Shown here: in pieces, positions 1 to 35,184 of the stretch | How the letters are laid out: each line of letters starts with the position of its first letter | Position numbering within the stretch: the first letter of the stretch is position 1 | Origin: Planctomycetaceae bacterium | GTDB taxonomy: Bacteria; Planctomycetota; Planctomycetia; Pirellulales; Thermoguttaceae | Direction: 5' to 3' | DNA length: 37,600 bases | Assembly (NCBI GenBank): GCA_031278315.1 | Contig: JAITKS010000347.1 | Location: forward strand, 1 to 37,600 | Program-made: the position numbers and the translations under genes | The notes under the pieces: generated by a model | The model's database searches: none | The model's input: the letters and a program-made list of their open reading frames with translations, nothing else | Told to the model about the DNA's origin: nothing

Positions 1-74
1 GGGGTTACTTCACACGAAAAATTAATTTCGTTGATTACAATTTGTTCGAGTTGAATATTCTTTGTTGTTTTCAT
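1..74 (-). CDS. 5' end of a CDS running off the left edge (MKTTKNIQLEQIVINEINFSCEVTP...)
   Basis: Open minus frame from ATG at 72-74 to the window edge, preceded by SD-like GAGGTG; not a recognisable S5 N-terminus. Confidence 0.4.
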   Translation of the reverse strand, partial: MKTTKNIQLEQIVINEINFSCEVT

Positions 75-517
75 AGTTACACCTCATTACCTTTCTGATT
101 TCAAAATTGAAATCTATTAACCTTGAGAGCAATGCAAAAAAATTTTTTTTTGCTGTATTACTCTTATCTTTCCGTGCGGCTCTATTGGGTTGTCAACGCA
201 ACAACTCAACGCACACGGAGCCAAACAACGTTGTGCCGATTCATGTTGACCGTGTATTTGTGTACGTAAACACAATAAACACGGCTTAAATTTTATGACG
301 TTATAAGACCATCAACTTTTTGTTAATTCATTTGTATCTAACAATCAATAAGAATCAAACGGAGCGGAAGTATAACAACACGATCAATAGTTGTCAACAC
401 AATAGTTTTTCAATTTGTAAAATCGTATATGTCCGATCTTTGATTTTTTCAATTTGTACGATTATTATGATTTTCGGTAAAATTTCAATCAATTCATAAT
501 TTAATTGTATAAATTTT

Positions 518-831
518 GTAATATATCAGTGGAATAATTTTTTTTTTCAATTTTTTGTAATTTTTAAACACGAAATACACGAACAAGAGGTAACTATCAA
601 GAAGTCCCGCTAGGGACGACACTTTATTAATTATATGCTTTAGCATACAGAATGAGCTAATAAAGTGTCGTCCCTGCGGGACTTAACTGGTATGTGATTG
701 ATAAACCGTAAGCTAAAGCATACGGTTAATAAAGTGTCGTCCCTAGCGGGACTTGACAGATATGTGATTGATAATTTAAAAATTCGTAAACAACCAAAAA
801 AACGAAAACAATTATTACACTGATATATTAC
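518..831. repeat. MITE-like element, family 1 copy A
   Basis: GTAATATATCAGTGGAATAATTT (518) paired with AATTATTACACTGATATATTAC (to 831); three GTCCC..GGGAC modules inside. Confidence 0.75.
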
Positions 832-1227
832 TTTTATTTTTATTTACCACAGAGAACACAGAGAAAGAATATTTTGTAATTTTAGATTTTAACTTTTAGA
901 TTTTGGGTAATATATCAGTGGAATAATTTATTGTTTTCGGGAATGCGGTCGTCTCGACCGCATCTTTAGTTTTGTTTTTTGACAGGATTACAGGATTGAC
1001 AGGATTTTTATACTCATTGCCATTTAAAATTCGGTATTATTTTTTGTAACGAAAAAGGTGACCGTTCACGCATAAAACTAGAATCGCCCTGAAAAGACAA
1101 CAGTATTTTTTACTGAATCGCCCGCCCCAGCGGGGCGGATAAAAGTCCCCCCTCCTCGAAGCCCTGAAAGAGCAGCAGGATATTATGACACGATTATTGT
1201 GAAAGAATCCGATGAATTTATAGTTAC

Positions 1228-1740
1228 TTATTTTTTCTTTGCATTTGCTTTTCCAGCGGCTGCTTTTGCGGCGTTTTTTGTTTCTTTGGTTGGTTTAACC
1301 TTTTTATTGCTGCCGCTTTGTGCTTTGTCTTTTTTACTGCTTTCTTTTGGAACTTTTGCTTCGCCCTCTGCTCCGATATCTAATCCGGCATGTCGGGCGG
1401 CATCCGCTAATGCTTTAATACGTCCATGATATTTAAAACCATGCCGATCAAATGCAACTTGTTTTATTCCGGCAGCCAACGCTTTCTTTGCAATCAAACC
1501 GCCGATTTTTTCAGCAGCAGTACAATTACCTCCGTTTGGAATTTCCGAACGAATGTCTTTATCACGTGTACTAGCAGCAACTAACGTTTTCGCCAAATTA
1601 TCATCAATTATTTGAGCATAAACGTTTGTATTACTACGAAAAACACAAAGACGCGGTCTCGACGAATATCGTTTAACCGCATTCGATACACGAAACGCTC
1701 TATTCTTTCGTTGTCTGTTTATTTGTTTGAATTTTTTCAT
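1228..1740 (-). CDS. rplR: 50S ribosomal protein L18 with Lys/Ala-rich C-terminal extension
   Basis: [20 protein letters not shown]... [20 protein letters not shown]; position after rplF. Confidence 0.95.
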
Positions 1741-2032
1741 TGGATATCACTTTTACTAACTTAAACTTTAATTTTTATAACTAACGTTTTTAATTAAATC
1801 GGGACAAAAAAATAAGTCCGCCATAAAACTAATTTTCAATTTTTATTTTTCGTAATATTTTGAAATCTCAATAAATCACTGTTATCACGAAAACTCACAA
1901 AAAACTAAATTGATTGAAAATTAAACTTCTCTAATATTAGTTTTCTATTAACCATCGAGAACACAAAAAATACAAAATTATATTACGAAATATTTCACTG
2001 TTATATTAGTATATTACATAATCACATAATTT

Positions 2033-2581
2033 TTACTTCTTAGTTGCAGCCTTTGATTCTTTACGTCTTATTACTTCACCTTCGTATTTTATTCCCTTTC
2101 CTAGATAAGGTTCAGCTTTTCTGATACTTCTAATTTCGGCAGCAAATTGACCAACAAGTTGTTTGTCAATTCCCTTTATACTAACATGCGTTTGATCAAG
2201 ACATTTAACATCTAAACCGACAGGAATTTTTTTGTGAACTTCATGTGCAAATCCTGCTCTAACTTGCAAAATTTTATCAGACAAAGCAAACAAATATCCT
2301 GTGCCGAATATTTCTAGTTTCTTTTCGTAACCGCTTGTAACACCGATAACCATATTTTGAAACAAAGCTCGGTAGAGACCATGCATCGCAGCAGCTAAAC
2401 GAGTTGCGTTTGCACGCTCGACAGTAATTACATTTGCGGTACTGTCGAATTTCACATTGACATTCGGACTAAATTCTTGCTGCAATTTGCCCAAAGGTCC
2501 TTCAATTGTCAATGTCTTTTCTGCTAAAGTTACCTTAACATTAGTAGGTATAACAATTGGTTTTTTTCCAATTCTTGACAT
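2033..2581 (-). CDS. rplF: 50S ribosomal protein L6
   Basis: MSRIGKKPIVIP... EPYLGKGIKYEGEVIRRKESKAATKK. Confidence 0.97.
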   Translation of the reverse strand: MSRIGKKPIVIPTNVKVTLAEKTLTIEGPLGKLQQEFSPNVNVKFDSTANVITVERANATRLAAAMHGLYRALFQNMVIGVTSGYEKKLEIFGTGYLFALSDKILQVRAGFAHEVHKKIPVGLDVKCLDQTHVSIKGIDKQLVGQFAAEIRSIRKAEPYLGKGIKYEGEVIRRKESKAATKK

Positions 2582-2662
2582 AAGTAACTACTCCTAACTT
2601 GCCGGTTATAATTTCCGGTAACACTATTTCAAAAAATTATTTCTTTTACTGTTATTTTAATA

Positions 2663-2782
2663 TTTTAAACACTGCTCAAATCTCAAACTCTAAATTCGAT
2701 AACTTCCGAATATTTATCTATCGGAAACAGCAGATTTAATAACTTAAAACTACCGTCGAAATTCATAGTACGAGTTGAATAC
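2663..2782 (-). repeat. Ribosomal-spacer repeat (rplF/rpsH)
   Basis: AAACACTGCTC...TTCCGA(loop)TCGGAA...GTCGAAATTCATAGTACGAG. Confidence 0.65.
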
Positions 2783-2814
2783 AATAATTAATTTTCAACT
2801 TTCACAAAAATTTA

Positions 2815-3210
2815 TTACCAAATTTGGCCAATTACTTCACCGCCGACATTTTTTAACTTTGCTTCACGGTCGCTTAAAATTCCGCGATTTGTGTTGAGTA
2901 TTTGTATCCCCAAACCATTAAGTACAGGTTTAAGACCAGAAGCCTGAACATAAATGCGGCGTCCGGGTTTACTTACTCGTTTAACTTTGCCGATTACCTT
3001 TTCGGCATTCGGTCCGTACTTTAAGTGAACACGAATAAGTGAAACTGGTTTAGATTCAACAACTTCCCAGTCCCAAATGTATCCCTCACGTTTTAGGACA
3101 TCAACGATTCCTTTTTTCTCATTTGAGACAGGAACATCGACAAATACTTTTTCAATTCTGACCGCATTACGAATTCGGGTCAGTAAATCAGCAATCGGAT
3201 CTGTTAACAT
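2815..3210 (-). CDS. rpsH: 30S ribosomal protein S8
   Basis: MLTDPIADLLTRIRNA... LNTNRGILSDREAKLKNVGGEVIGQIW. Confidence 0.97.
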   Translation of the reverse strand: MLTDPIADLLTRIRNAVRIEKVFVDVPVSNEKKGIVDVLKREGYIWDWEVVESKPVSLIRVHLKYGPNAEKVIGKVKRVSKPGRRIYVQASGLKPVLNGLGIQILNTNRGILSDREAKLKNVGGEVIGQIW

Positions 3211-3320
3211 AGTTTTAGTTTATTTTCAAGCAAATTATTTTTTACTTTATTTTAAGCTATTCACGCTTTAATTTTTTATAACCGCAACCTATTTGCTAAA
3301 CGGCAAATAGATATTAAGTC

Positions 3321-3435
3321 TTTTAAACTGCTCTCACTTAAATTTTCGGTTTGAGCTGCTGCCTGATTAACTCTCGGAAAACAGGCTTTACGGAATAAGC
3401 TCTCGTATCGCCGAAATTCTAATATGATACGTATT
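3321..3435 (-). repeat. Ribosomal-spacer repeat (rpsH/rpsN)
   Basis: TTTTAAACTGCTCTCACTTAAATTTTCGGTTTGAGCTGCTGCCTG...CAGGC...AGCTC...CCGAAATT; three nested stems. Confidence 0.75.
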
Positions 3436-3877
3436 ACTTTTCTTTTTGAATTACTGAAATTCACCTGTACAAACAGTTATAAAATCGGCGAATTCAAAAA
3501 AATATATATCAGTTGAAATTTTTCAACGATAACTTGAACGATAACTTGATTGTGCCGTATAGTGAAAATTTTCCCGTTTGCTAGCAACAATACTTAAAAT
3601 TCGTTAAGAACATTGCGTTGAGTTCACAATGAAGTATCGTTAGTAATAATTCTATAACCTTAAAAAAATATGGTTAATAAATTACTGCCCTAGCTGGACA
3701 AGGAAAAAAAAGGAACGCACATCTTTGGAAAAAAATTATCTTACGAAATATTTCACTGAAATATTACAAAAAAATTTAAGATAATTCTGGTACAAGATTG
3801 TAATTTTCGATCAAACTTAAATTATTGTTTTTTTTAATTTGTTAATTATTGTAACAATAAATTTTGTTTACACGGAA

Positions 3878-4063
3878 TTACCAACTTGATTTTTTTACTC
3901 CCGGAATGTGTCCTTGATTAGCAAGGTTACGGAAACAAATTCGGCAGATTCCAAACTTTCGATAAACGGCTCGCGGTCTGCCGCAAATTTGACATCTGTT
4001 TTCTCTACGAGTTGAGAATTTTGGTTTCCGTTTTGCTTTATTAATTTTTGATATACTTGCCAT
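3878..4063 (-). CDS. rpsN: 30S ribosomal protein S14, zinc-binding (type Z)
   Basis: [38 protein letters not shown] with two CxxC motifs. Confidence 0.97.
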
Positions 4064-4650
4064 TGGGATTGATGGATAAATTATTCATTTATGGATAAGC
4101 TGCCTTTTTCAAACTATAAATTTGATAGCCCCAAAAGGCATTTGTAACATTAATACTTGAATTGTTGTAATATTTCTGTGAAGTCTTTTTGTTCGTAATT
4201 CAATATGAAATTTGTAAAATAAACAGCGTTTTCAACTGATATTCCTTTAATTACAAACTATGAACTTTAATTAAAATTTCTACCGCAATATTACGAAAAT
4301 TTTCACGTTTGAAATTTCAATAACTCGTTTCAGCACTATTAAGCTTAACTGATTTAAATGATTCACTCTTTGATTCTCTATTAGTTTTTTCAAAGTTTGC
4401 CGGATTATCTCCTCCCTTTGAAATCAGTTTTTTACCTTTTACGCTTTTGAATAACCGAAAATCATAATACGATACTTATAATAAATACACACAGAATAAA
4501 TACACTCGGAATTAATTGTTGAGTCTCACAATCTAAAACATTAACAACTCTGATCAAATCAACAGTTTTTTTATACGATTCAATTTTGTATTGTAATCAT
4601 CCGTTGATATAAAGTTGATATAAAACTGCGTGATTATCTTTTGTGTAATA

Positions 4651-5241
4651 TTATATTTTTTTACGTTTCGGCGGAGCGTCGGCTCTGAACGGCATACCGA
4701 ATTCGCGAAGTAATTCACGCGATTCGTTATCACTTACGCCGCGTGAAACAAAGGTGATATTCATACCTTGACTTTTCGTATATTTGTCTGGATTCAATTC
4801 AGGAAAGACCAAAAATTCGATCAAACCGAGATTGTAGTTGCCGCGACCGTCAAAGCTTTTTGGATTTAATCCTTGAAAATCACGTACTCGCGGCAGCACA
4901 ATTGAAATTAGTCTGTCTAGGAACTCGTACATTCTTGCACCGCGAAGAGTTACCATACAACCGATATTCATTCCTTCACGTAATTTGAAATTGGCAATTG
5001 ATTTTCGCGCTTTCGTTACTACAGGTTTTTGACCCGTAACTTGAGTAAGCACATCAACGGCTTCTTCCATATACTTTTTATCAGCAATACTACTGCCTAC
5101 TCCCATGTTCACAACAATTTTTTCGAGTCTTGGCAATGACATAATATTCTCTCGACCAAGCTTCTTTTTGAGAACAGGTATGATTTCTTTTTTATATTTT
5201 TCTTGTAAACGCGGTATTGTCATCATTCTCTCCAATAACAT
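4651..5241 (-). CDS. rplE: 50S ribosomal protein L5
   Basis: [21 protein letters not shown]... [18 protein letters not shown]; start may be the internal MTIPRL. Confidence 0.97.
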
Positions 5242-5348
5242 TTTGACCCGTGTATATTTTGCACACGCGGTTGTATTTCAAAAATTAAATTTTGCATTCG
5301 ACATGTTAAAAGTCCAATCTATTAAGTATTCAATTAACATATCAATTG

Positions 5349-5460
5349 TTTCAAATCTGCTCATACTTTGTAATTCGGTAATAATTATCTGCTTAACAAT
5401 CGATAAACAGATTTAACGAATACTTTGAATTACCGGAATTAATAAATTATATAGTACAAG
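5349..5460 (-). repeat. Ribosomal-spacer repeat (rplE/rplX)
   Basis: TTTCAAATCTGCTCATACTTTGTAATTCGGTAAT...ATCTG/CAGAT...ATTACCGGAATTA...TAGTACAAG. Confidence 0.65.
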
Positions 5461-5506
5461 CCGATATTTCGTCCGATTTATAATTTTGTTTTGACTATTT
5501 AACTAG

Positions 5507-5848
5507 TTACTTTTTTTTTGCTTTTGCTGGTGAAATTAGGCTTATATCGGTTTTACATTTTTTACATGTACGATATTTTGCACCGTTTTCATCGTAACGT
5601 ACACCAACACGTGTTGGCTTATCACATTTAGGACAAATCACTTGAACGTTTGAAGCGGGAATTGCCATCTCTAACGAAAGTTGACCGCCCCGCGGATTAC
5701 GCTGACTTTTACGCACATGTTTTTTTACAACAGCTACGCCTTCGAGCTTAATCTTGTTCGATTCGTGATCTATTTCTAATACTTTTGTTCTTTTGCCTCG
5801 ACTAGGTCCCGTAAGAACTACAACCAAATCATTCTTATTGACACGCAT
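5507..5848 (-). CDS. rplX: 50S ribosomal protein L24
   Basis: MRVNKNDLVVVLTGPSRGKRTKVLEID... with CPKC/CKKC motifs. Confidence 0.96.
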   Translation of the reverse strand: MRVNKNDLVVVLTGPSRGKRTKVLEIDHESNKIKLEGVAVVKKHVRKSQRNPRGGQLSLEMAIPASNVQVICPKCDKPTRVGVRYDENGAKYRTCKKCKTDISLISPAKAKKK

Positions 5849-5940
5849 GACTTACACCTGAAAAAATTATAAACAATATTTATTTTAAACTATTCACACT
5901 TACACTTAAAAATTTCGGCAATAATATAATTTCGATAATT

Positions 5941-6040
5941 TTTAATCTGCTCACACTTAAATTTTCGGCTTGAACTGCTAACTTATCTATCGGAAGCAGG
6001 CTTTTAATAATAACCTAAATTCATATTACAATACGTTATA
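5941..6040 (-). repeat. Ribosomal-spacer repeat (rplX/rplN)
   Basis: TTTAATCTGCTCACACTTAAATTTTCGGCTTGAACTGCT...TTATCTATCGGAAGCAGGCTTTTAAT. Confidence 0.7.
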
Positions 6041-6131
6041 TTTTGTTTGCTTATCTCTTGGAAAGCGAAACCGGCTTTATCGTTTTATGTAATTATTACA
6101 GTGTGAATAAATGTGAATAAAATAATCAATT

Positions 6132-6542
6132 TCAAACTACCTCGCTTGCTAGGCTGATTATTTTTACAAAACCTTCTTCGCCGCGAGCTTTACCTTTACC
6201 TTTTTTCTTTCGGTCTTTATCGCGTAATTCACGAGCAACAGCACCGAAAACGCGTGTACCTACCGGATTTTTATTATTATCAATCAATACCGCTGCATTA
6301 GAATCGAATCTAACATAGCTGCCGTCTTCACGGCGTACTGACTTTTTTGTTCGCACGATAACCGCTTTGACTACCGCACCTTTTTTAATGTTACTGCCCG
6401 GAATTACTGATTTAACCGAACAAACAATAATATCACCTAGTCCCGCAAAACGCCGATGAGTACCTCCAAGCACTTTGATACACATTAATTCTTTTGCACC
6501 TGTGTTATCAGCAACATCTAATCTGGTCTGCATTTGAATCAT
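6132..6542 (-). CDS. rplN: 50S ribosomal protein L14 with internal basic insertion
   Basis: [27 protein letters not shown]... [12 protein letters not shown]...[12 protein letters not shown]. Confidence 0.97.
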
Positions 6543-6781
6543 AACTCAATCTACCTCACAAATAATTTAGTTGAATAATTGAAATTTTTTTACTTTGCTA
6601 ATGTTCTTATCGCAAGAGACGATAATGAATAAAATTATTCATTACTATTATTCTGCAATTTTATGTTTTTAACTTGTTGTACCGGACTTAAAATTTCGGT
6701 ATTTTGATCGGTATTCTGATAATAAGTTACTCGAAAATTTAAGTATATTTTTTTGATATTTGATATTTGATAATTGTGTTT

Positions 6782-7102
6782 CTAGCTATTTTCTATTTGT
6801 TGTTGATTTGTTGCCGCAGCTAATTTGGCAGCAGCACGTAAAGCAGCAACATCTATTAAATTACCTTTTGTTACAATTCGTACTAACTTCCAACGTTTTA
6901 ATCTTGACAGAGGGCGGCTTTCTACAATTTCAACTGTATCACCGACCACCGATGAATTTTCTTCATCGTGAACATAACAAACAGTGCGCCGTTTGACATA
7001 TTTACCGTATTTCGGATATTTTACAAGCCGAGATACTTCGACCCGTCTAGTCTTTTTCATTTTGTCGCTTGTTACGACTCCAACTACAATTTTTTTTGGC
7101 AT
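6782..7102 (-). CDS. rpsQ: 30S ribosomal protein S17
   Basis: VGVVTSDKMKKTRRVEVSRLVKYPKYGKYVKRRT... ESRPLSRLKRWKLV. Confidence 0.96.
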   Translation of the reverse strand: MPKKIVVGVVTSDKMKKTRRVEVSRLVKYPKYGKYVKRRTVCYVHDEENSSVVGDTVEIVESRPLSRLKRWKLVRIVTKGNLIDVAALRAAAKLAAATNQQQIENS

Positions 7103-7216
7103 TTAATCTCAACCTCTTTCAATGTTATTTATTTCGATTTGTCATAGACTTGTGTTTACAACAAGATCATGTATTGTTTCTACTTTTGATTACTGTATCC
7201 GGCGATTATAGTTCCT

Positions 7217-7420
7217 TTATAGTTCCTTTTGACGAATAGATTTTATTGTAAGTATTTGCGCAATCAATTTTTTATTTTTTTTCAATTCACTAGGCGAATC
7301 CAGACGTTCCATTCGTGCCTGTAATCTAAGACGAAACAATGAATCTTTAGCATCTTTTAATAAGACACCGAGTTGTTCATTTGTCATTGATTTAAGTTCT
7401 GATATTTTTACAGCATACAT
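7217..7420 (-). CDS. rpmC: 50S ribosomal protein L29
   Basis: KISELKSMTNEQLGVLLKDAKDSLFRLRLQ; position between rplP and rpsQ. Confidence 0.95.
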   Translation of the reverse strand: MYAVKISELKSMTNEQLGVLLKDAKDSLFRLRLQARMERLDSPSELKKNKKLIAQILTIKSIRQKEL

Positions 7421-7904
7421 TTTTAAATTTATCTTTCTAATCTAAATTGAATTTTATTTTTACTAAATTAATAAAATCCTAATACTATATTTTTCGCTCC
7501 AGTCCAATTTACGTTTATAAATATACTGAATCAGCTTTGAGTAAATTAAGGTTAAAGTGAAATTCAAATTCCGCATGATTATTACCAAATTTCTGGGCAG
7601 CATATCAAAATCATTAATGTAAAAAAACTTATCTAAATATTTAATATTTTTTCAAATAAAAACTAGTTTATTCAAATACAGTGACAACAAATTTAATAAC
7701 TTCAAATAACAGAATTAACATTAATTTTTATTTATTACATGAATAAAAATTAAATTCATAATTGATTATATTTATCAAATTACGCCGTTGCGGTAAGTAT
7801 TTAATATTTTTAATTGTTAATTCACTTACTGATTTTACTTTAATGTAAATCTTGTAATTGTACTAGTTATTATGTTCCAAGATATTTGCAAATTTATTGT
7901 TTTT

Positions 7905-8321
7905 TTACATGATTTTTCGTTTTACGAATCTGCATTTTACTGGCATTTTGTGTGCTAGTCTGTTGAAACATAATTTTGCAGTTTCTTCTGGAACACCAGC
8001 GACTTCATACATAATAGTACCGGGTTTTACGACCGCAGCCCAATATTCAGGTTCGCCTTTTCCTTTACCCATTCGCGTCTCTAACGGTATTGACGTGATG
8101 GACTTATCAGGGAAAATTCGGATATACAAACGTCCTTCAGTTCTGAGATATTGCTGTGCGGCGATACGTCCTGCTTCAATCGTCGCAGCACTTATCCAAC
8201 CGCCTTCAAGCGTTTGTAAACCGTAATCTCCAAATGTTACATCGTTTCCTCTGGTCGCTTCACCTTTTATACGACCTCTTTGGATTTTTCGATGTTTGAC
8301 TCGTTTTGGCATTCGCGCCAT
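7905..8321 (-). CDS. rplP: 50S ribosomal protein L16
   Basis: MPKRVKHRKIQRGRIKG... GKGKGEPEYWAAVVKPGTIMYEVAGV. Confidence 0.97.
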   Translation of the reverse strand: MARMPKRVKHRKIQRGRIKGEATRGNDVTFGDYGLQTLEGGWISAATIEAGRIAAQQYLRTEGRLYIRIFPDKSITSIPLETRMGKGKGEPEYWAAVVKPGTIMYEVAGVPEETAKLCFNRLAHKMPVKCRFVKRKIM

Positions 8322-8976
8322 TGTTTTCGTCCTCGCTATATTCGCCTTGATTTATCCAAACTTGGATTCCAATATGACCTTGTGCGATTTTGGCTTCATG
8401 AAAACCATAATCTATTTTCGCACGTAACGTCGATAACGGAATTGAACCGGCTATTTGCTTCTCGCAACGCGCCATTTCTGCACCGCCTAATCGACCCGAT
8501 AACTGAATTTTTATACCCTTTGCACCGGCTTCCATCGCTTGTTCCATCGCACGTTTCATCGTGCGGCGGAAACCGATCCGCCTAACTAACTGTTCGCCGA
8601 TATCTTCAGCTACAAGTTGTGCAACAATATCAGGACGAAGTACCTCTTCAATTTTGAGATTTACTCTACGTCCGGTTATTTTTTGCAAGTCTTCCTGAAG
8701 TTCTTCAACCTTTCTGCCGCGCTGCCCGATCATAATACCCGGTTTAGCAGAAAATAGTACAACGCGAACTTCATCACGTGTCCGTTCAATTTCGATTTTA
8801 GCTATCGCTGGATAAAGCGGTTTGTCCGCTGCATCTTTACGTTTTTTTATAAAGTCGCGAATTTTCTTGTCTTCTACAAGCAATTCCGCAAACTCTTTCT
8901 TGGAGGCGTACCAACGACTTTTCCACTCCTCCATAATGCCGACACGAAATGCTACCGGATTTACTTTTTGACCCAT
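8260..8976 (-). CDS. rpsC: 30S ribosomal protein S3
   Basis: MGQKVNPVAFRVGI... KH domain with GQRGRKVEELQ; GHIGIQVWINQGEY. Confidence 0.97.
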   Translation of the reverse strand: MGQKVNPVAFRVGIMEEWKSRWYASKKEFAELLVEDKKIRDFIKKRKDAADKPLYPAIAKIEIERTRDEVRVVLFSAKPGIMIGQRGRKVEELQEDLQKITGRRVNLKIEEVLRPDIVAQLVAEDIGEQLVRRIGFRRTMKRAMEQAMEAGAKGIKIQLSGRLGGAEMARCEKQIAGSIPLSTLRAKIDYGFHEAKIAQGHIGIQVWINQGEYSEDENNGANAKTSQTSKNPKRSYKR

Positions 8977-9305
8977 GTTATCCTATAGTTTCTAATAATC
9001 TACATGTTTCTTGTTGAGGTTTAATTCACCTTTTTTTAACTGCTCACATTTTCAATAATCTACCGATTTAATCTGTCGATTTATCTACCATAAAATTGGT
9101 GTAATGAATTGTAATGAATACAACCTTGCCGAAATTCATTTTATGAGCTGAAAAAAATAAACTACCGCAACCGAATTTTTTTCACAATATTATGTATCAA
9201 ATTCTAAATTGCGAACAATACAAATTACGGATTCGCTTGAATTATCGTAACAATAATTATTAGCCCGCTTCCGTTTGCGGATTAAACATATTAAAACTAA
9301 CCTCA

Positions 9306-9668
9306 TCAGTTGCCGCCGATTATAACGGTAATATGTGAAGTTCGTTTGTAATATACACTTGAAGCTCCTCGCGATTTGGGACGAAAACGTTTGCTCATCG
9401 GACCGCCGTCTATTCTAATATCGAGAATACCGAGACTTGTTGTTTTACCCATTGTGATTCTGTCTGCCGCATTTTTAACAGCTGTGTAAATCGCTTGACG
9501 GACAAGTTTCGCTCCGCGTGAAGGGTAGCATGAAAGTATTGCTATTGCACGTTCTGCTGCTTCGCCGCGCACTAGATCCGCATAAGGCCGAATCTTTCTT
9601 GCACTCATTTGAACGTATCGATGAATCGACTTAAACGTTTCTTTTTTATTTTCTGCTTTTTTTGCCAC
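9306..9668 (-). CDS. rplV: 50S ribosomal protein L22
   Basis: HRYVQMSARKIRPYADLVRG... RFRPKSRGASSVYYKRTSHITVII. Confidence 0.97.
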   Translation of the reverse strand: MAKKAENKKETFKSIHRYVQMSARKIRPYADLVRGEAAERAIAILSCYPSRGAKLVRQAIYTAVKNAADRITMGKTTSLGILDIRIDGGPMSKRFRPKSRGASSVYYKRTSHITVIIGGN

Positions 9669-9892
9669 TGTTTTTTACCTCGTAAAAAAAATGAAATTGA
9701 TTTACAAATTATACTAATTCAAAACCGTTGCCGTCTAAAAAACTACAAATAAGATTAGCCGGAATAGGAATATTATGTGAACAAACAACATTTGTCAAAA
9801 AATTTGAATCTACATATTCATCTGCTATTCTGTTTATTAACGAAAAACAACAAAAAGCAAAAAAACAAAAAATTCTGTAGATATTCAGTATT

Positions 9893-10025
9893 TTTGAACC
9901 GCTCTTACTTGAATGTTCGGTTTGAGCCGTTTGTTTATCTATCGTAAAACAGCAGGCTTTTTAATGTTTTTTATATTTTGTAGTGAATGGTCTTTATATC
10001 ACCGAAATTAATAGTACGATGCGAA
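9893..10025 (-). repeat. Ribosomal-spacer repeat (rplV/rpsS)
   Basis: TTGAACCGCTCTTACTTGAATGTTCGGTTTGAGCCG...CAGCAGGCTTTTTAATG...CACCGAAATTAATAGTACGATG. Confidence 0.7.
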
Positions 10026-10045
10026 AATGATTTGTTACCGTTTTT

Positions 10046-10321
10046 TTATTTCTTACCTTTTCCGCCGTGACCTCTAAAAATTCGTGTCATTGAAAATTCA
10101 CCTAATTTGTGTCCGACCATTTCTTCGGTTACAAATACTTTGACAAATATTTTTCCGTTATGCACAAGAAAAGTATGTCCCACAAATTCGGGAACTATTG
10201 TACATGCTCTCGCCCATGTTTTTATAGGCTCTTTCTTGACAGCATTATCCAATTTTTCGACCTTCGCAAGGAGTTTAACATTGACAAACGGTCCCTTTTT
10301 TAACGATCTGCTCATAAACAA
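10046..10321 (-). CDS. rpsS: 30S ribosomal protein S19
   Basis: [23 protein letters not shown]... [17 protein letters not shown]. Confidence 0.97.
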
Positions 10322-10639
10322 TTTAATCCCAAAAAAATTATTCGCGACGGATTATACGCGAAACAAGTTGATTTTTTATCTAAAAGTCAAAGCCAAAATT
10401 TCTGAAATTGAAACAGCCCAAACTTGAAATCAAATACCCTGCTTATATTTTTAACTTGCTTATATTTTTTATATTTTTGTAACAAAAAATACCGCAAAAA
10501 AAATATCCTTCACAATTGAAAATAAATAGTAACTTCTATAATGACAACCGCACTCGCTAATTAGACTATATAACTTGTTACTTTTATGAAAATTTAACTC
10601 CTAAAAACATGACAGACAAAACAATGAATTTTCTAAATA

Positions 10640-11503
10640 TTATGACAATTTTAGTACACCGTAGCGTCTGCTTTTTCGTCGTCTGATAATAGCTTTATTA
10701 GTTGGTTTGCGTTTTTTACGAGTTGATGTACCTTTGGTTGGTTTACCAGTTGGCGTGACAGGGTGACGTCCGCCTTTTGTTCTGCCTTCACCTCCGCCGT
10801 GCGGGTGGTCGATTGGATTCATTGCCGTACCTCTAACATGCGGGCGTCGTCCCATCCAACGGCTTCGTCCCGCTTTACCGACTTCTATATTCATGTGGTC
10901 GATGTTACCTACAACTCCGATTACCGCACGGCATTTGATCGGTACACGTCTAATTTCGCCGCTTGGCATATTTAATTGTGCCCAACCTGTTTCAGTGTCG
11001 CGTGCTACTAATGTTGCTTTAGAACCAGCTGACCTACAAAGTACACCGCCTCGATTCGGATGTAATTCAATATTGTGAACTTCTGCCCCTAAAGGTATTT
11101 CTGCAAGCGGCAAACAATTACCGAGATTAGGCGGCGCACCTGTTCCGCTTAAAATTTTCGCTCCAGATTTTAAACCTTCCGGTGCAACAATATATCGTCT
11201 CTCACCGTCAACATATTTCAACAACGCCAGTCTTGCACTACGATTCGGATCATATTGAATTGATGCAACTGTTGCTTCAACTCCGTCTTTGTTTCGCCGG
11301 AAATCAACTAGTCGAAATTGACGCTTATGACCGCCCCCGCGATGACGGACTGTTATTATTCCTTGATTATTACGACCATTAGTTCGCCGTTTTGCCCGTA
11401 GTAATTTTTTTTCCGGTGATGTATTTTTTGTCAGTTCTGCGAAATCGCTGACACTCATGTTCCGGCGACCAGCATTATTTGGCTTATATTTTTTTATTCC
11501 CAT
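10640..11503 (-). CDS. rplB: 50S ribosomal protein L2
   Basis: [17 protein letters not shown]... [35 protein letters not shown]. Confidence 0.98.
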
Positions 11504-11812
11504 TTGAATACCACTATTATTAAACTGTTTATACTTTAAATTTCGTTAACCGCATGTTCACTAACTATGATCAATACTGCAAAAAGGTGAAATATAATTT
11601 AATGTTTAAATCTATAATTTAAATCTGCGTGAATTATATTTACACTATCGAATTATCGAAATTAAATTGAGTATGAACTGGTATAATTTTTAACTACTTG
11701 TCTAATCTAATACAGCGAATTGTACAATCGCAATCAAACGTCCAACCGCCTTAAAATCACACATTAACTCACAAATTTTTATATGAAAGACAATATCAAC
11801 CGTAATTGATTA

Positions 11813-12130
11813 TCAACCGTAATTGATTTTATCATTGTCATCTAATCTTACTAACGCCCGCTTGATTGGAGTTGTTCTTCCAAGAGCGTGACGAACACGT
11901 CGTTTTTTACCTTTACGTTTTTGTGTTCTTACTTCAACTACCTTAACCTCAAAGAGGAACTCTACAGCTTCTTTAATCTGTTTTTTATTTGCAAGGCTAT
12001 TTACTTCAAAAGTGTAAATATTACGATGTTCAGCAAGGTCGTAACCTTTTTCTGTAACTACTGGTTTAAGGATTACCTGATATGGTTCAAGTTGTAAATT
12101 TACTTTTGTAATATCAAATTGTCTTGGCAC
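11813..12130 (-). CDS. rplW: 50S ribosomal protein L23
   Basis: LKPVVTEKGYDLAEHRNIYTFEVNSLANKKQIKEAVEFLFEVKVVEVRTQKRKGKKRRV. Confidence 0.96.
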   Translation of the reverse strand: MPRQFDITKVNLQLEPYQVILKPVVTEKGYDLAEHRNIYTFEVNSLANKKQIKEAVEFLFEVKVVEVRTQKRKGKKRRVRHALGRTTPIKRALVRLDDNDKINYG

Positions 12131-12188
12131 TATACACCTCCATTATTTTATTTCGATTGTACTTATTTCGGGATTAAGTTTGTATAAA

Positions 12189-12310
12189 TCTTTTAAACTG
12201 CTCACGTATAAATTTTCGGTTTGAACGATCTTTTTACCTAAATCTGGAATCAGGTTTGTAGTGAATGGACACGCCTTTGTTACTGCCGAAATTCATAGTA
12301 TGAAACGGAT
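12189..12310 (-). repeat. Ribosomal-spacer repeat (rplW/rplD)
   Basis: TCTTTTAAACTGCTCACGTATAAATTTTCGGTTTGAACG...ACTGCCGAAATTCATAGTATGAA. Confidence 0.7.
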
Positions 12311-12356
12311 ATTTATTGATATAGTTTATTTTGATTTATCATTGTTCAAGATTAAT

Positions 12357-13085
12357 TCAGGGACTGGGCGTAACTATCTCTGTTCCTGTTCCTGTTCCTG
12401 TTGCTGTTGCTGTTTCCGATTTTAGCTCGTTGAGTTTTTTCTCGTAATCGGACGGACTAATAATTGAGTTCACAAGAGATTCATAAGCTAGGCGTGTCAT
12501 TAGCAGTCGTTTGGGACGAAGAATTTCGTAAGCATTTAGATCAGATACAGGTAAAATTCGGACACCTTCAATGTTGCGGAAACTTTTGTAAAGATTTGTA
12601 TTATGTTGTTCAATTGCGACGAGGACTGTTTCGTTTATTTTAAGAGCATTAAGGATTTGTACTACTTCTTTAGTTTTAGGTGCATCGACTGCCAGAGTAT
12701 CGATTAGAATAACTTGTGCGTCGTTTAATTTTGCGACAAAAGCCATTCTTGCAGCTTTTTTTAGTGCTTTACTTGGCAATCTGAAAAACCAATTTCGCGG
12801 TCTTTTCGCAAAAATATGACCGCCTCCGCGGCGTACACCGCTGCGCCGATGCCCCGCACGTGCGTTGCCCGTACCTTTTTGTTTGTACATCTTTTTCTTA
12901 TGACCGGCAACTTCCGCCCGCGATTTAGTTTTCGCAGAACCTTGCCGCAGATTAGATTGGTACATAACGACAGCATCATGTAAAAGCCGGCTGTTGATAT
13001 GTTCAACCAACAGTTCAGTATATACTGTCAACTTATCTATTTCGTTACCCGATTTATCGTAAACCGTCAATTCGACGCTCGACAT
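12357..13085 (-). CDS. rplD: 50S ribosomal protein L4
   Basis: RQGSAKTKSRAEVAGHKKKMYKQKGTGNARAGHRRSGVRRGGGHIFAKRPRNW. Confidence 0.97.
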   Translation of the reverse strand: MSSVELTVYDKSGNEIDKLTVYTELLVEHINSRLLHDAVVMYQSNLRQGSAKTKSRAEVAGHKKKMYKQKGTGNARAGHRRSGVRRGGGHIFAKRPRNWFFRLPSKALKKAARMAFVAKLNDAQVILIDTLAVDAPKTKEVVQILNALKINETVLVAIEQHNTNLYKSFRNIEGVRILPVSDLNAYEILRPKRLLMTRLAYESLVNSIISPSDYEKKLNELKSETATATGTGTGTEIVTPSP

Positions 13086-13183
13086 GGCACACCTAATTCA
13101 AATTATTTTCGTTGAAAATTACTAAAAAATTTATATCCGAAACAATTCGGATTATTAAACACTAAAAAATTTCTTACTAAAAA

Positions 13184-13292
13184 GTTTTAACTTGCTCTCG
13201 TTTAAAATTTCGATTATCGTTACCTGCTTCCTAAATCGGAAAGCAAGTTTTTATTCACGTATTATTATCGAAATTCAAAGTACGATGTGTAT
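13184..13292 (-). repeat. Ribosomal-spacer repeat (rplD/rplC)
   Basis: TTTTAACTTGCTCTCGTTTAAAATTTCGAT...TGCTTCC/GGAAAGCA...ATCGAAATTCAAAGTACGATGTGTA. Confidence 0.7.
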
Positions 13293-13342
13293 AAAACAAA
13301 CATTAAATTCGATTCTTTTGAAACTTCATTTTTATAAAGTTA

Positions 13343-14110
13343 TCAAGAATTTTCTGCTGTTGCTGCGGTTTCTGCGGTTGCTTTTTGTTTTTTTGTAATA
13401 CGCCACGGATTGGACTTAGGGACAGGTTGAATATTTGTTGGTTTGACTGTTACATATCCGCCTTTGGGTCCCGGAACGGCACCGCGTATTATCAACAGAT
13501 TGTTTTCTTTATCGACTAGAACTACCTTTTGATTTCGGATTGTTATTCTATCTGCGCCGTATTGACCGGGCATCCGTTTTCCTTTTTGAGTTCGGCTTGG
13601 AAATGCGCTGCATCCGCTGCTGCCTAAATGCCGATGACACTTTTTTACACCGTGTGATGCTCTTTGACCGCTAAAATTATGTCTTTTCATTACACCTGTA
13701 TAACCGGAACCTTTACTTATTGCCGTTACATCAACTGCAATTATGTTATCGAAGACATCAACTTTAATTTCTTGACCTATTTCAAATCCGTTTATTGGAA
13801 TTTTAAATTCACGTATAAATTTTTTCGGTTCACAATCTGCTTTAGCGGGCAAAACGATTCCGGCACTAATTCGTGATTTACGGCGTTTACTCTCAATTGA
13901 TGCAACTTGACCGCGTTCACTTTTAGATGCACGATGTCTAGCTTTATTACCGTATCCAAGTTGAACTGCCTCGTAACCATCCCGCTCGCCGTTACGAATC
14001 TGCAAAACATGACAAGGTCCGAGTTGTACAACTGTAACCGGTATTGCTTCACCTGTTTCCGTGTACAATTGAGTACATCCAATTTTTTGTCCTAAAAGTC
14101 CGATTGTCAT
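13343..14110 (-). CDS. rplC: 50S ribosomal protein L3
   Basis: GLLGQKIGCTQLYTETGEAIPVTVVQLGPC... GMKRHNFSGQRASHGVKKCHRHLGSSG. Confidence 0.97.
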   Translation of the reverse strand: MTIGLLGQKIGCTQLYTETGEAIPVTVVQLGPCHVLQIRNGERDGYEAVQLGYGNKARHRASKSERGQVASIESKRRKSRISAGIVLPAKADCEPKKFIREFKIPINGFEIGQEIKVDVFDNIIAVDVTAISKGSGYTGVMKRHNFSGQRASHGVKKCHRHLGSSGCSAFPSRTQKGKRMPGQYGADRITIRNQKVVLVDKENNLLIIRGAVPGPKGGYVTVKPTNIQPVPKSNPWRITKKQKATAETAATAENS

Positions 14111-14391
14111 TTGACGAAAATTTATTGTTACAAAAAAATACTATTTAATTTACCAATATCACACTTTAATATTTTTGGTTTGACGTTGTTTCTTTAGAAA
14201 TTTGACTAGTACAAATTTGAATTGCCAAAATTTCTAATGTGTGATTTGTAAGTTTGTTATCCACACAACTTGACTGATTTAATTTACTACGCTGTTGTTA
14301 TCTACTGTTTTTATGATTTTTTTTATGAAAATTTACTACTGTTATTTTTTTGGATTTAACTGTTATTCAGATTATCCCTCTTTTAATTAGA

Positions 14392-14503
14392 GTTTTTAAA
14401 CTGCTCTCATTTAATTTTTGGTTGAGCTGTCTGATTACCTAGTTGGAAAGCAGCTCTTTAATGAATAGCTTTCTTATCGTCGAAATTCATAGTACGATGT
14501 GTA
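14392..14503 (-). repeat. Ribosomal-spacer repeat (rplC/rpsJ, one of up to three)
   Basis: TTTTTAAACTGCTCTCATTTAATTTTTGGTTGAGCTG...CAGCTCTTTAATGAATAGCTTTCTTATCGTCGAAATTCATAGTACGATGTGTA. Confidence 0.75.
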
Positions 14504-14643
14504 AAGCAATTTAATTGAATACCTCGACAGAATTACGCTTGATATTTTTTATAGTTGTATTTAGTAATTGGACGTCTTTAATTTAAGCGTTATATTTGCG
14601 GGTATTTTGAATTGTTTATACCTTTTGAATTGTTTACACTTTG

Positions 14644-14755
14644 AACAGTTTACACATTCTGTTTGCACTTAAAATTTCAGTAAGAGCTGCCGGCTTATTT
14701 TTGGAAAGAAGCAGTCTCTTTAATGAATAGCTTTCTTGTTGCCGAAAAAATATGA
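14644..14755 (-). repeat. Ribosomal-spacer repeat (rplC/rpsJ, second copy)
   Basis: AAAATTTCAGTAAGAGCTGC...GGAAAGAAGCAGTCTCTTTAATGAATAGCTTTCTTGTTGCCGAAA. Confidence 0.65.
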
Positions 14756-14810
14756 GTTTTGTAATTATCTTATTCTTATTTTGCAGTTTATTATTGTTTG
14801 ACAATCTAAT

Positions 14811-15140
14811 TTATTTTTTTCCGCTTGTTTTAATTTTAATATCGACACCGGCGGGCAAAGTAAGTTTATTTAGTGCGTCGATTGTTTTGGTTGTTGCCTG
14901 TACGATGTCGATTACTCTTTTATGAGTTCTGATTTCGTATTGTTGCCTTGCCTTTTTATCGACATGCGGACTTGAAAGAACGGTATAACGTTCAATTCGT
15001 GTAGGCAACGGAATAGGACCGCGAACTAACGAACCTGTACGTTTCGCCGTATCGACTATGTCTGCGGCACTTTGATCAAGTATAGCATTATCGAATGCTT
15101 CCATTCTAATTCTTATTGTTTCATGCCCAAGCACGCTCAC
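14811..15140 (-). CDS. rpsJ: 30S ribosomal protein S10
   Basis: [67 protein letters not shown]. Confidence 0.98.
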
Positions 15141-26547: not shown

Positions 26548-26716
26548 GTAATATATCAGTGGAATAATTGTTTTTCAAATTTTTTGTAATTTCTAAACAC
26601 GAAAAAGAGCTAACTATCAAGAAGTCCCGCTAGGGACTTAACAGGTATGTGATTGATAATTTAAAATTCGTAAACAACCAAAAAAACGAAAAAAAATTAT
26701 TCCACTGATATATTAC
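26548..26716. repeat. MITE-like element, family 1 copy B (single short module)
   Basis: GTAATATATCAGTGGAATAATTG ... AATTATTCCACTGATATATTAC; one AAGTCCCGCTAGGGACTT module. Confidence 0.75.
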
Positions 26717-27120: not shown

Positions 27121-27264
27121 ATAACTTCTAAAAATTAATATTAGGAGGAATGAAGGCGTCTTGTCTGTACTTTTTTTGTACGAAAAACGCCTAAATATGC
27201 GGTCGAGATGACCGCGTTCCTTCTAACAATAAATTTTTACATTAGGTTTAGGTTTTTAGAAATT
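27121..27264 (+). repeat. Family 2 MITE-like repeat, copy 1
   Basis: ACTTCTAAAAATTAATATTAGGAGGAATGAAGGCGTC...GCGGTCGAGATGACCGCGTTCCTTCTAACAATAAATTTTTACATTAGG...TTTTTAGAAATT. Confidence 0.75.
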
Positions 27265-30777: not shown

Positions 30778-30867
30778 ATTTTTATTTAAAATAACGATTT
30801 AAATATCCGTACCCAAAATTGCAGCTAAACAAAAATTGGTTTAAAGATCAAAAAGAATTAAAAAGTG

Positions 30868-31008
30868 AATTTCTAAAAACCTAATTTAAAAATTTATAGT
30901 TAGAAGGAACGCGGTCGTCTCGACCGCATATTTATTTATGTGTTTTTTGTAAAAAAATAGTGCCGGCGGGACGCCTGCGTTCCTTCTAATATTAGTTTTT
31001 AGAAGTTC
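30868..31008 (-). repeat. Family 2 MITE-like repeat, copy 2 (inverted)
   Basis: AATTTCTAAAAACCTAAT...TAGTTAGAAGGAACGCGGTCGTCTCGACCGC...GACGCCTGCGTTCCTTCTAATATTAGTTTTTAGAAGTT. Confidence 0.75.
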
Positions 31009-34068: not shown

Positions 34069-34210
34069 TAACTTCTAAAAACTAACTAATATTAGGAGGA
34101 ATGCAGGCGTCTTGCCTGTACTTTTTTTGTACAAGAAACGTCTAAATATATGGTCGAGACGACCGCGTTCCTTCTAACAATAAATTTTTACATTAGGTTT
34201 TTTAGAAATT
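34069..34210 (+). repeat. Family 2 MITE-like repeat, copy 3
   Basis: Near identical to copy 1: AACTTCTAAAAACTAACTAATATTAGGAGGAATGCAGGCGTCTTGCCTGTAC...TTTTTTAGAAATT. Confidence 0.75.
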
Positions 34211-34312: not shown

Positions 34313-34694
34313 GTAATATATCAGTGGAATAATTGTTTTCGTTTTTTTGGTTGTTGATGAATTTTAAATTATCAATCTCATACCTGTTAAGTCCCGCAGG
34401 GACGACACTTTATTAACCGTATGCTTTAGCTTACGGATCAAACGCTATAACCTACCTATCAAGTCCCGCAGGGACGACACTTTATTAACCGTATGCTTTA
34501 GCTTACGGTTTATCAATCACATATCTGTTAAGTCCCGCAGGGACGACACTTTATTAGCTCCTACCGTATGCTGGAGCATACAATTAATAAAGTGTCGTCC
34601 CTAGCGGGACTTCTTGATAGTTAGCTCTTGTTCGTGTATTTCGTGTTTCAAAATTACAAAAAATTTGAAAAACAATTATTCCACTGATATATAC
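34313..34694. repeat. MITE-like element, family 1 copy C (four modules, opposite orientation to A)
   Basis: GTAATATATCAGTGGAATAATTG ... CAATTATTCCACTGATATATAC; three direct and one inverted GTCCC module. Confidence 0.75.
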
Positions 34695-35184
34695 TTTTCA
34701 CACTTTAAATTTTGGTATTTGTTTTAAACTAAAATTGCTTCTACGGAGCGAATTTGTGGACAATTTTTTTGACTCAAAAACAAAAATTGTGCTGACATAT
34801 TACAAATTTTGGTTTCTCTACAATTATTTCAATTGAGATATTATAGGTTTTATTTTTAACTCGTGCTGAAAAAAAATAATTTTTTCCAAATTTTTTGTAA
34901 TTAGATTTTGTAATAGATTATTTGTAATAGATTAATAGATATAGTCCCGCTAGGGACGACACTTTATTAACCGAATGCTTTAGTTTACGGCAGGAGTTTT
35001 TTTATTTTCTAATGTATCTATCCCCTAATATACAATGTTTTGAAGGTAAGTATAATGTGTTATGTTTTGTTAAGACAAAGGATCGATATTATTGTTTCAT
35101 GGAAGATTTAAATATATTTTGGGCGATAGACTGATTTGGTTCTGTCTTTTTTTGCCTATTTACCTAACTATAAAAATTGAAAAA

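Follow-up and report, generated by a model that had tools for sequence, protein, structure and literature searches.

The closest described systems are REPIN/BIME palindromes and their RAYT transposases (TnpA-REP; subclasses 2.2, 2.4, 2.5, 2.7 and 2.8, PMC6006769), in which, as in the system described here, a low-copy Y1/HUH gene lies within inverted palindromes, and the palindromes are dispersed as inverted doublets and clusters. Unlike RAYTs, which have the class-2 NP motif, the Y1 transposase of our source genome has the class-1 NQ motif, and its repeats have no GTAG/GTGG foot. The repeat unit of the source genome is also bipartite (two hairpins with a conserved spacer), and its dispersal appears to ride on a MITE. 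TnpA-Y1 proteins of subclass 1.2 are about 148 aa long, have DH[IV]H, Y---Q--HH and WQ motifs, occur at low copy number and are common in Bacteroidota (PMC6006769). Quentin et al. (2018, PMC6006769) list no REPs for this subclass, whose members generally lack the end structures of IS200. The Y1 protein resembles it in length, in the DH[IV]H and Y---Q--HH motifs and in low copy number, but most of the loci tested here are bracketed by bipartite inverted repeats, unlike the subclass as published. CGTC-tagged REPs resemble the repeats described here in being short palindromes that bear a short unpaired tag, in often forming head-to-head dimers, and in lying in some cases inside other palindromes (PMC3733652). 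Their stems are 8-9 bp long and nearly always open with complementary A/T pairs, and none of these REPs was seen to flank a transposase (PMC3733652). Identity with them was rejected, since the repeats described here have a 5-bp stem, GTCCC/GGGAC, and lie on either side of a Y1 gene. Bacterial MITEs such as NEMIS, RUP and ERIC (PMC3733652) are comparable in being short and non-coding, with 15-30-bp TIRs and high copy number. Those of the source genome differ in carrying the repeats of another transposase, and in combining an 8-bp target site duplication (TSD) with a TIR that starts with GTAA.

We conclude, with a probability of about three in four, that the elements combine two mobile systems, one nested within the other, in which a MITE with TIRs and an 8-bp TSD is the carrier and the bipartite REPs of a subclass-1.2 Y1 transposase are the cargo. 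By analogy, the whole would work like a REPIN/RAYT system inside a MITE. This reading draws on features evident in the DNA itself: TIR pairing, the TSD, bracketing of the Y1 gene by REPs, sharing of the module with Bacteroidota, nesting, and homogeneity within arrays. The route by which the REPs entered the MITE may have been Y1 action or rearrangement of the MITE.

The window is the whole stretch of DNA analysed (37,600 nucleotides), and is one contig of the source genome, that of a planctomycete (4.03 Mb, 473 contigs, 86% complete). A first-pass annotation of the window had described three elements with shared termini and flanks, differing in the number of arms, each arm a hairpin beside a second hairpin. 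On re-reading the sequence, we found all three in place, with 22-bp TIRs and interior flanks common to all of them. The module consists of a first hairpin (H1, GTCCCGC(T)AGGGAC), a spacer (GACACTTTATTAA) and a second hairpin (H2, CCGTATGCTTTAGCTTACGG), with a unit period of 68-72 nt.

The first copy (518-831, plus strand) has TIRs at 518-539 and 810-831 and three modules, starting at 612 (+), 658 (-) and 727 (-). Its central head-to-head doublet (604-683, plus strand) is predicted to fold as a single long hairpin (-31.7 kcal/mol, z -11.6), and consists of H1 (604-617), the spacer (618-630), a degenerate H2 (~631-650), an inverted spacer from 658 and an inverted H1 (671-683). The third module (684-753, minus strand) is made up of a linker, H2 (706-725), the spacer and H1 (740-753). 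Beside this copy are other short interspersed repeats, ACCACAGAGAACACAGAG and GACAGGATTACAGGATTGACAGGATTT, at 845-870 and 978-1010. The second copy (26548-26716, plus strand) has perfect TIRs (26548-26569 and 26695-26716) and no spacer/H2 module, only one bare GTCCCGCTAGGGAC hairpin, an H1, at 26624-26637. We read it as a contracted form. H1s are nearly palindromic, and fusion of two of them by recombination or slippage would leave such a lone H1.

The third copy (34313-34695, minus strand) is inverted relative to the first, with a left TIR at 34313-34334 and a damaged right TIR at ~34674-34695. It carries four modules (+ + + -), starting at 34398, 34470, 34539 and 34585. The complete bipartite unit on the plus strand at 34391-34436 comprises H1 (GTCCCGCAGGGAC, 34391-34403), the spacer and H2 (34417-34436). 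A second tandem unit follows at 34463-34508 (plus strand), and the third unit forms a head-to-head doublet with the inverted fourth (34532-34611, plus strand). A fifth module, a detached H1-spacer-H2 unit on the plus strand, lies outside the element at 34943-34990.

Genome-wide, the TIR pattern matches 1018 sites at up to 3 mismatches and the module core 202 sites at up to 2 mismatches. Reversed patterns give 0 in both cases, and the counts are therefore not due to chance. The TIR is 22 bp long (GTAATATATCAGTGGAATAATT), and the element ends are GTAATATATCAGTGG. Within 707 kb of the source genome, 63 TIR neighbours less than 500 bp apart are convergent vs. 9 divergent. The 73 TIR elements sampled are 88-399 bp long. 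A duplication of 8 bp with at most one mismatch flanks 12 of the 73, vs. 1.0 expected (z 4.7; none of 1000 shuffles as high), and the agreement between flanks is sharp at 8 bp; at 7 bp it is weak, and at 9 bp there is none. In two related species, the duplication is perfect in 7 of 15 elements (G015) and 7 of 13 elements (G008), as in GGGATTGG; the elements of these two genomes are younger than those of the source genome. Paired TIRs of 15-30 bp, a length of 70-400 bp, the absence of coding capacity and a target site duplication of fixed length, here 8 bp, are the properties by which MITEs are recognized. Based on the paired TIRs and the 8-bp duplication, the carrier behaves like a MITE, mobilised by an enzyme that is probably of the DDE type. 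IS66 was suggested by the GTAA ends and 8-bp TSD, and was rejected because a search of the 86%-complete genome with PF03050 at E 0.001 gave no match. Convergent TIR intervals of 0.5-2.3 kb were sampled for autonomous copies; they contain mostly host genes and no recognisable transposase. Repeated contig ends of G015 and G008, read for an active IS, yielded additional MITEs loaded with different REPs. In two related assemblies, many contigs (L386-L402) start ~97 bases into a TIR element, a distance suggestive of the assembly k-mer length; these assemblies seem to have been broken up by recent bursts of MITEs.

We sought a clean empty site for the element at 518-831 in relatives and found none, because the neighbour of rplR differs. 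Most relatives have rplR, a short TIR-free gap and then rpsE, whereas at window positions 1-1227 rplR gives way to ~1.1 kb of repeats, after which comes a different reading frame (MKTTKNIQLEQIVINEINFSCEVT...). Rearrangement at the repeats, or joining during assembly, would explain this junction. At 1228-15140 are S10-spc-like ribosomal protein genes separated by gaps of ~100 to >1000 bp, which is unusual for this normally compact operon. Two related repeats occur in several of the gaps between the ribosomal genes: D1 (at 3321, 5940, 9892, 12191, 13185, 14394 and 14652) and D4 (at 2752, 9125, 9998, 12282, 13264, 14476 and 15359).

The Y1_Tnp profile has a single match in the genome (E 4e-18), a protein of 149 aa encoded on contig C368. 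It matches solved transposases by sequence, and the residues that are invariant when 13 relatives are aligned include H54, H56, W94, Y114, Q118, H121 and H122. With the motifs DHVH and YIINQQEHH and a W motif of WS, the protein fits TnpA-Y1 subclass 1.2, as judged by motif and length. The gene lies between inverted modules (H1-spacer-H2-gene-spacer'-H1'); bracketing of a Y1/HUH gene by inverted copies of a dispersed palindrome is the arrangement that identifies a REP/Y1-transposase system. An IS200/IS605 IS (subclass 1.1) would have several near-identical transposase copies that move as an IS, and subterminal hairpins at each end; it was rejected on account of the single copy, the inverted bracket and an NCBIfam IS200 score just below the cut-off (53.4 vs. 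55). A canonical RAYT/TnpA-REP was also rejected, given YIINQ rather than NP, an H2 foot of ATAA rather than GT[AG]G, and a RAYT score of 32.7 vs. a cut-off of 80. Rfam has no match in the window or in 13 Y1 loci. The compact head-to-head doublet found in the MITEs, which folds into one long hairpin, is the layout of the Y1 locus minus the gene.

Could the hairpins instead be an evolved interior of the MITE, acting as transcription terminators or structural filler within a single mobile system that has no link to Y1? Such a history would account for the fact that 42 of 45 complete module clusters (those away from contig ends) adjoin a TIR or MITE interior. The other three are the Y1 locus itself, a lone unit, and the detached unit of the window. 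It would also be compatible with the 29 of 73 TIR elements that have neither the REP module nor the GCC hairpin, from which it follows that the carrier needs neither. However, the modules bracket a Y1 gene that lies outside any MITE, modules of the same architecture, though diverged, occur at related Y1 loci, and in the copies examined from termite-gut Bacteroidota the modules are dispersed without TIRs. The bracketing and the TIR-free copies largely refute a single mobile system, which we consider very unlikely. The first-pass annotation had proposed looking for a transposase with matching ends. A Y1 (RAYT-like) gene bracketed by the modules is indeed present; for the TIRs no transposase was found in the IS66 search or in the sampled TIR intervals. 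What lay beyond the reach of that annotation is that there are two independent systems, the TIR/8-bp-TSD MITE and the REPs of this Y1.

Clusters always consist of plus units followed by minus units, and an element holds 0 to 5 modules. Units are more similar within an array (0.964) than between arrays (0.878), a difference reached in 0 of 500 permutations, and thus arrays grow locally, by tandem duplication. Shrinkage may occur by deletion between the palindromic H1s. The 73 elements come from an 855-kb sample picked partly for modules, so the cargo counts are not genome-wide estimates: the REP module is present in 20, a GCGGTCGTCTCGACCGC hairpin in 24, and other repeats in the remaining 29. 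This second cargo family of the TIR carrier is found in the window at 907-970, 27133-27249, 30836-31007 and 34084-34200. Cargo also differs among related species. One or two elements each were seen in G004 (cargo of GTCCCGCTAGGGAC type, with a different subterminal sequence), G019 (GTCCCGCAGGGACGAGATGTACATAACC) and G005 (CACCCTGAAGGGGTGGCATTTTCATAACC). G008 carries GCCCTGAAAGGGC-type cargo and G015 carries AACGCCGCTAGGCGTTTACTGTGAATAACC, the latter with a high control rate (21 of 101 windows) in regions picked beside MITE fragments. Both of these genomes have modules in MITEs and no close Y1 in their incomplete assemblies. In a related species, one TIR element (L072:1441-1960) has a further long palindrome between two REP arms, that is, three levels of nesting.

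That one carrier is repeatedly found with different REPs favours several captures over a single one. The same pattern would be seen if Y1 had repeatedly inserted REP doublets into palindromic MITEs as a preferred single-stranded target, with MITE movement contributing little to their spread. REP dimers are known inside other palindromes in Anabaena variabilis and Halothiobacillus neapolitanus (PMC3733652). However, in the REP-bearing MITEs of the source genome the subterminal sequences to the left and right of the array are the same from copy to copy, as they would be if all descended from one loaded ancestor. Elements bearing REPs, taken alone, show the duplication signal at 8 bp (z 3.5), and the young elements of G008 and G015 have perfect TSDs. 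Repeated insertion by Y1 is thus unlikely as the main route. Given the shared subterminal sequence around the array and the TSD signal of loaded copies, we prefer spread by MITE transposition.

The first-pass interpretation is supported overall. The termini are paired, and the number of modules is not uniform among copies. Its proposal of expansion and contraction by recombination holds in part, in that module number varies and units within an array are more alike. So does the idea of a mobile element that captures hairpins, in that the same TIR carrier has different hairpin cargoes within the source genome and in related species. The comparison of empty sites that it called for yielded no exact empty site.

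The closest relatives of the Y1 protein (70-81% identity) are from Bacteroidota of a similar habitat (Symbiothrix, Azobacteroides and others) and from one single-cell genome labelled Campylobacterota, whereas Y1 proteins of same-genus planctomycetes are at most 58% identical. The habitat of the same-genus planctomycete loci is read as termite gut from isolate naming and the company that they keep, with no source stated. The source-genome Y1 falls in a clade of 12 (support 100/100) whose nearest sister is weak (96/54). Bacteroidota loci of this clade share the source-genome module, which is dispersed at 1 to 113 copies per genome and, in the copies examined, has no TIR. That the Y1 groups within a clade of termite-gut Bacteroidota, which have the same module, suggests horizontal transfer between phyla, involving Bacteroidota; the planctomycete may have been the recipient. 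The Campylobacterota-labelled genome (L237) has a Bacteroidota-like Y1 locus and the same module, by transfer or possibly contamination.

A further reading is that the repeats and the Y1 contig are an assembly or binning artefact, derived from a co-binned termite-gut Bacteroidota genome. The assembly is fragmented and metagenome-like (473 contigs, 86% complete), and many arrays lie at contig ends. However, the modules share the window contig with ribosomal protein genes, and the sampled Bacteroidota copies are without the TIR carrier. On contig C368, the gene adjoining Y1 is 87-92% identical to its best same-genus matches, and the contig carries the source genome's other repeat families. Based on this neighbour gene and these repeats, we take contig C368 to be genuine and reject misbinning; an artefact is highly improbable. 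The Y1 gene is absent from this site in all eleven relatives inspected.

We scanned genomes of 84,980 species using seven Y1 proteins as the query, since an alignment of 13 was too diverse, and identified 80 related Y1 loci, mostly in Bacteroidota. Among the 77 with enough flanking sequence, 67 have the gene enclosed by an inverted repeat whose score exceeds the 99th percentile of 830 controls from the same loci. Exact-stem H1-spacer-TAAC-H2 modules are present at 49 of the 77 loci vs. 10 of 1270 control windows. With the spacer unconstrained, H1-H2 pairs were found in 87 of 154 flanks vs. 102 of 1270 controls, with a spacer mostly of 11-13 nt that most often ends in ATAA. Thus diverged modules of the same architecture accompany related Y1 genes. 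The H1 triloops of these loci are mostly GNA (GAA, GCA, GTA, GGA). Several pair types are seen at every stem position of H1 and H2; as pairing of the stems was a condition of the search, this is diversity and not independent covariation.

The general form of the bipartite REP is therefore H1 (a 5-8-bp stem, usually with a GNA triloop), a spacer of ~11-13 nt usually ending in ATAA, and then H2, often arranged as inverted doublets. GNA triloops form unusually stable DNA mini-hairpins. This stability fits a single-stranded substrate, and the Y1 enzyme probably binds and cuts the module hairpins as single strands.

A possible history for the composite elements is as follows. The Y1 REP system would have been acquired in the termite gut, by a transfer involving Bacteroidota. 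A REP doublet would then have entered the MITE, via Y1 action or MITE rearrangement, and loaded copies would have spread by MITE transposition, with a DDE-type transposase acting in trans. Arrays would subsequently have grown and shrunk by tandem duplication and by deletion between H1s.

More broadly, and only tentatively, at somewhat less than even odds, subclass-1.2 Y1 transposases may constitute a cross-phylum REP class with a bipartite double-hairpin REP, which in termite-gut planctomycetes has repeatedly become a passenger of DDE-type MITEs. Dispersal would then have two tiers, with a single-strand system supplying structured cargo and a double-strand transposon spreading it. Among open-licence papers, consulted mostly as titles and abstracts, we found neither REPs described for subclass 1.2 nor a TIR/TSD MITE whose REP families change; prior reports elsewhere are possible. 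The repeats identified here supply candidates for a Y1 subclass that has been described as REP-less and without IS properties. The likely substrate of the enzyme can now be written down, and the function of the subclass is thus testable. The elements also provide a concrete case of two unrelated transposition systems stacked on each other, with cargo that varies by species, and suggest that REP systems pass between phyla within one gut community.
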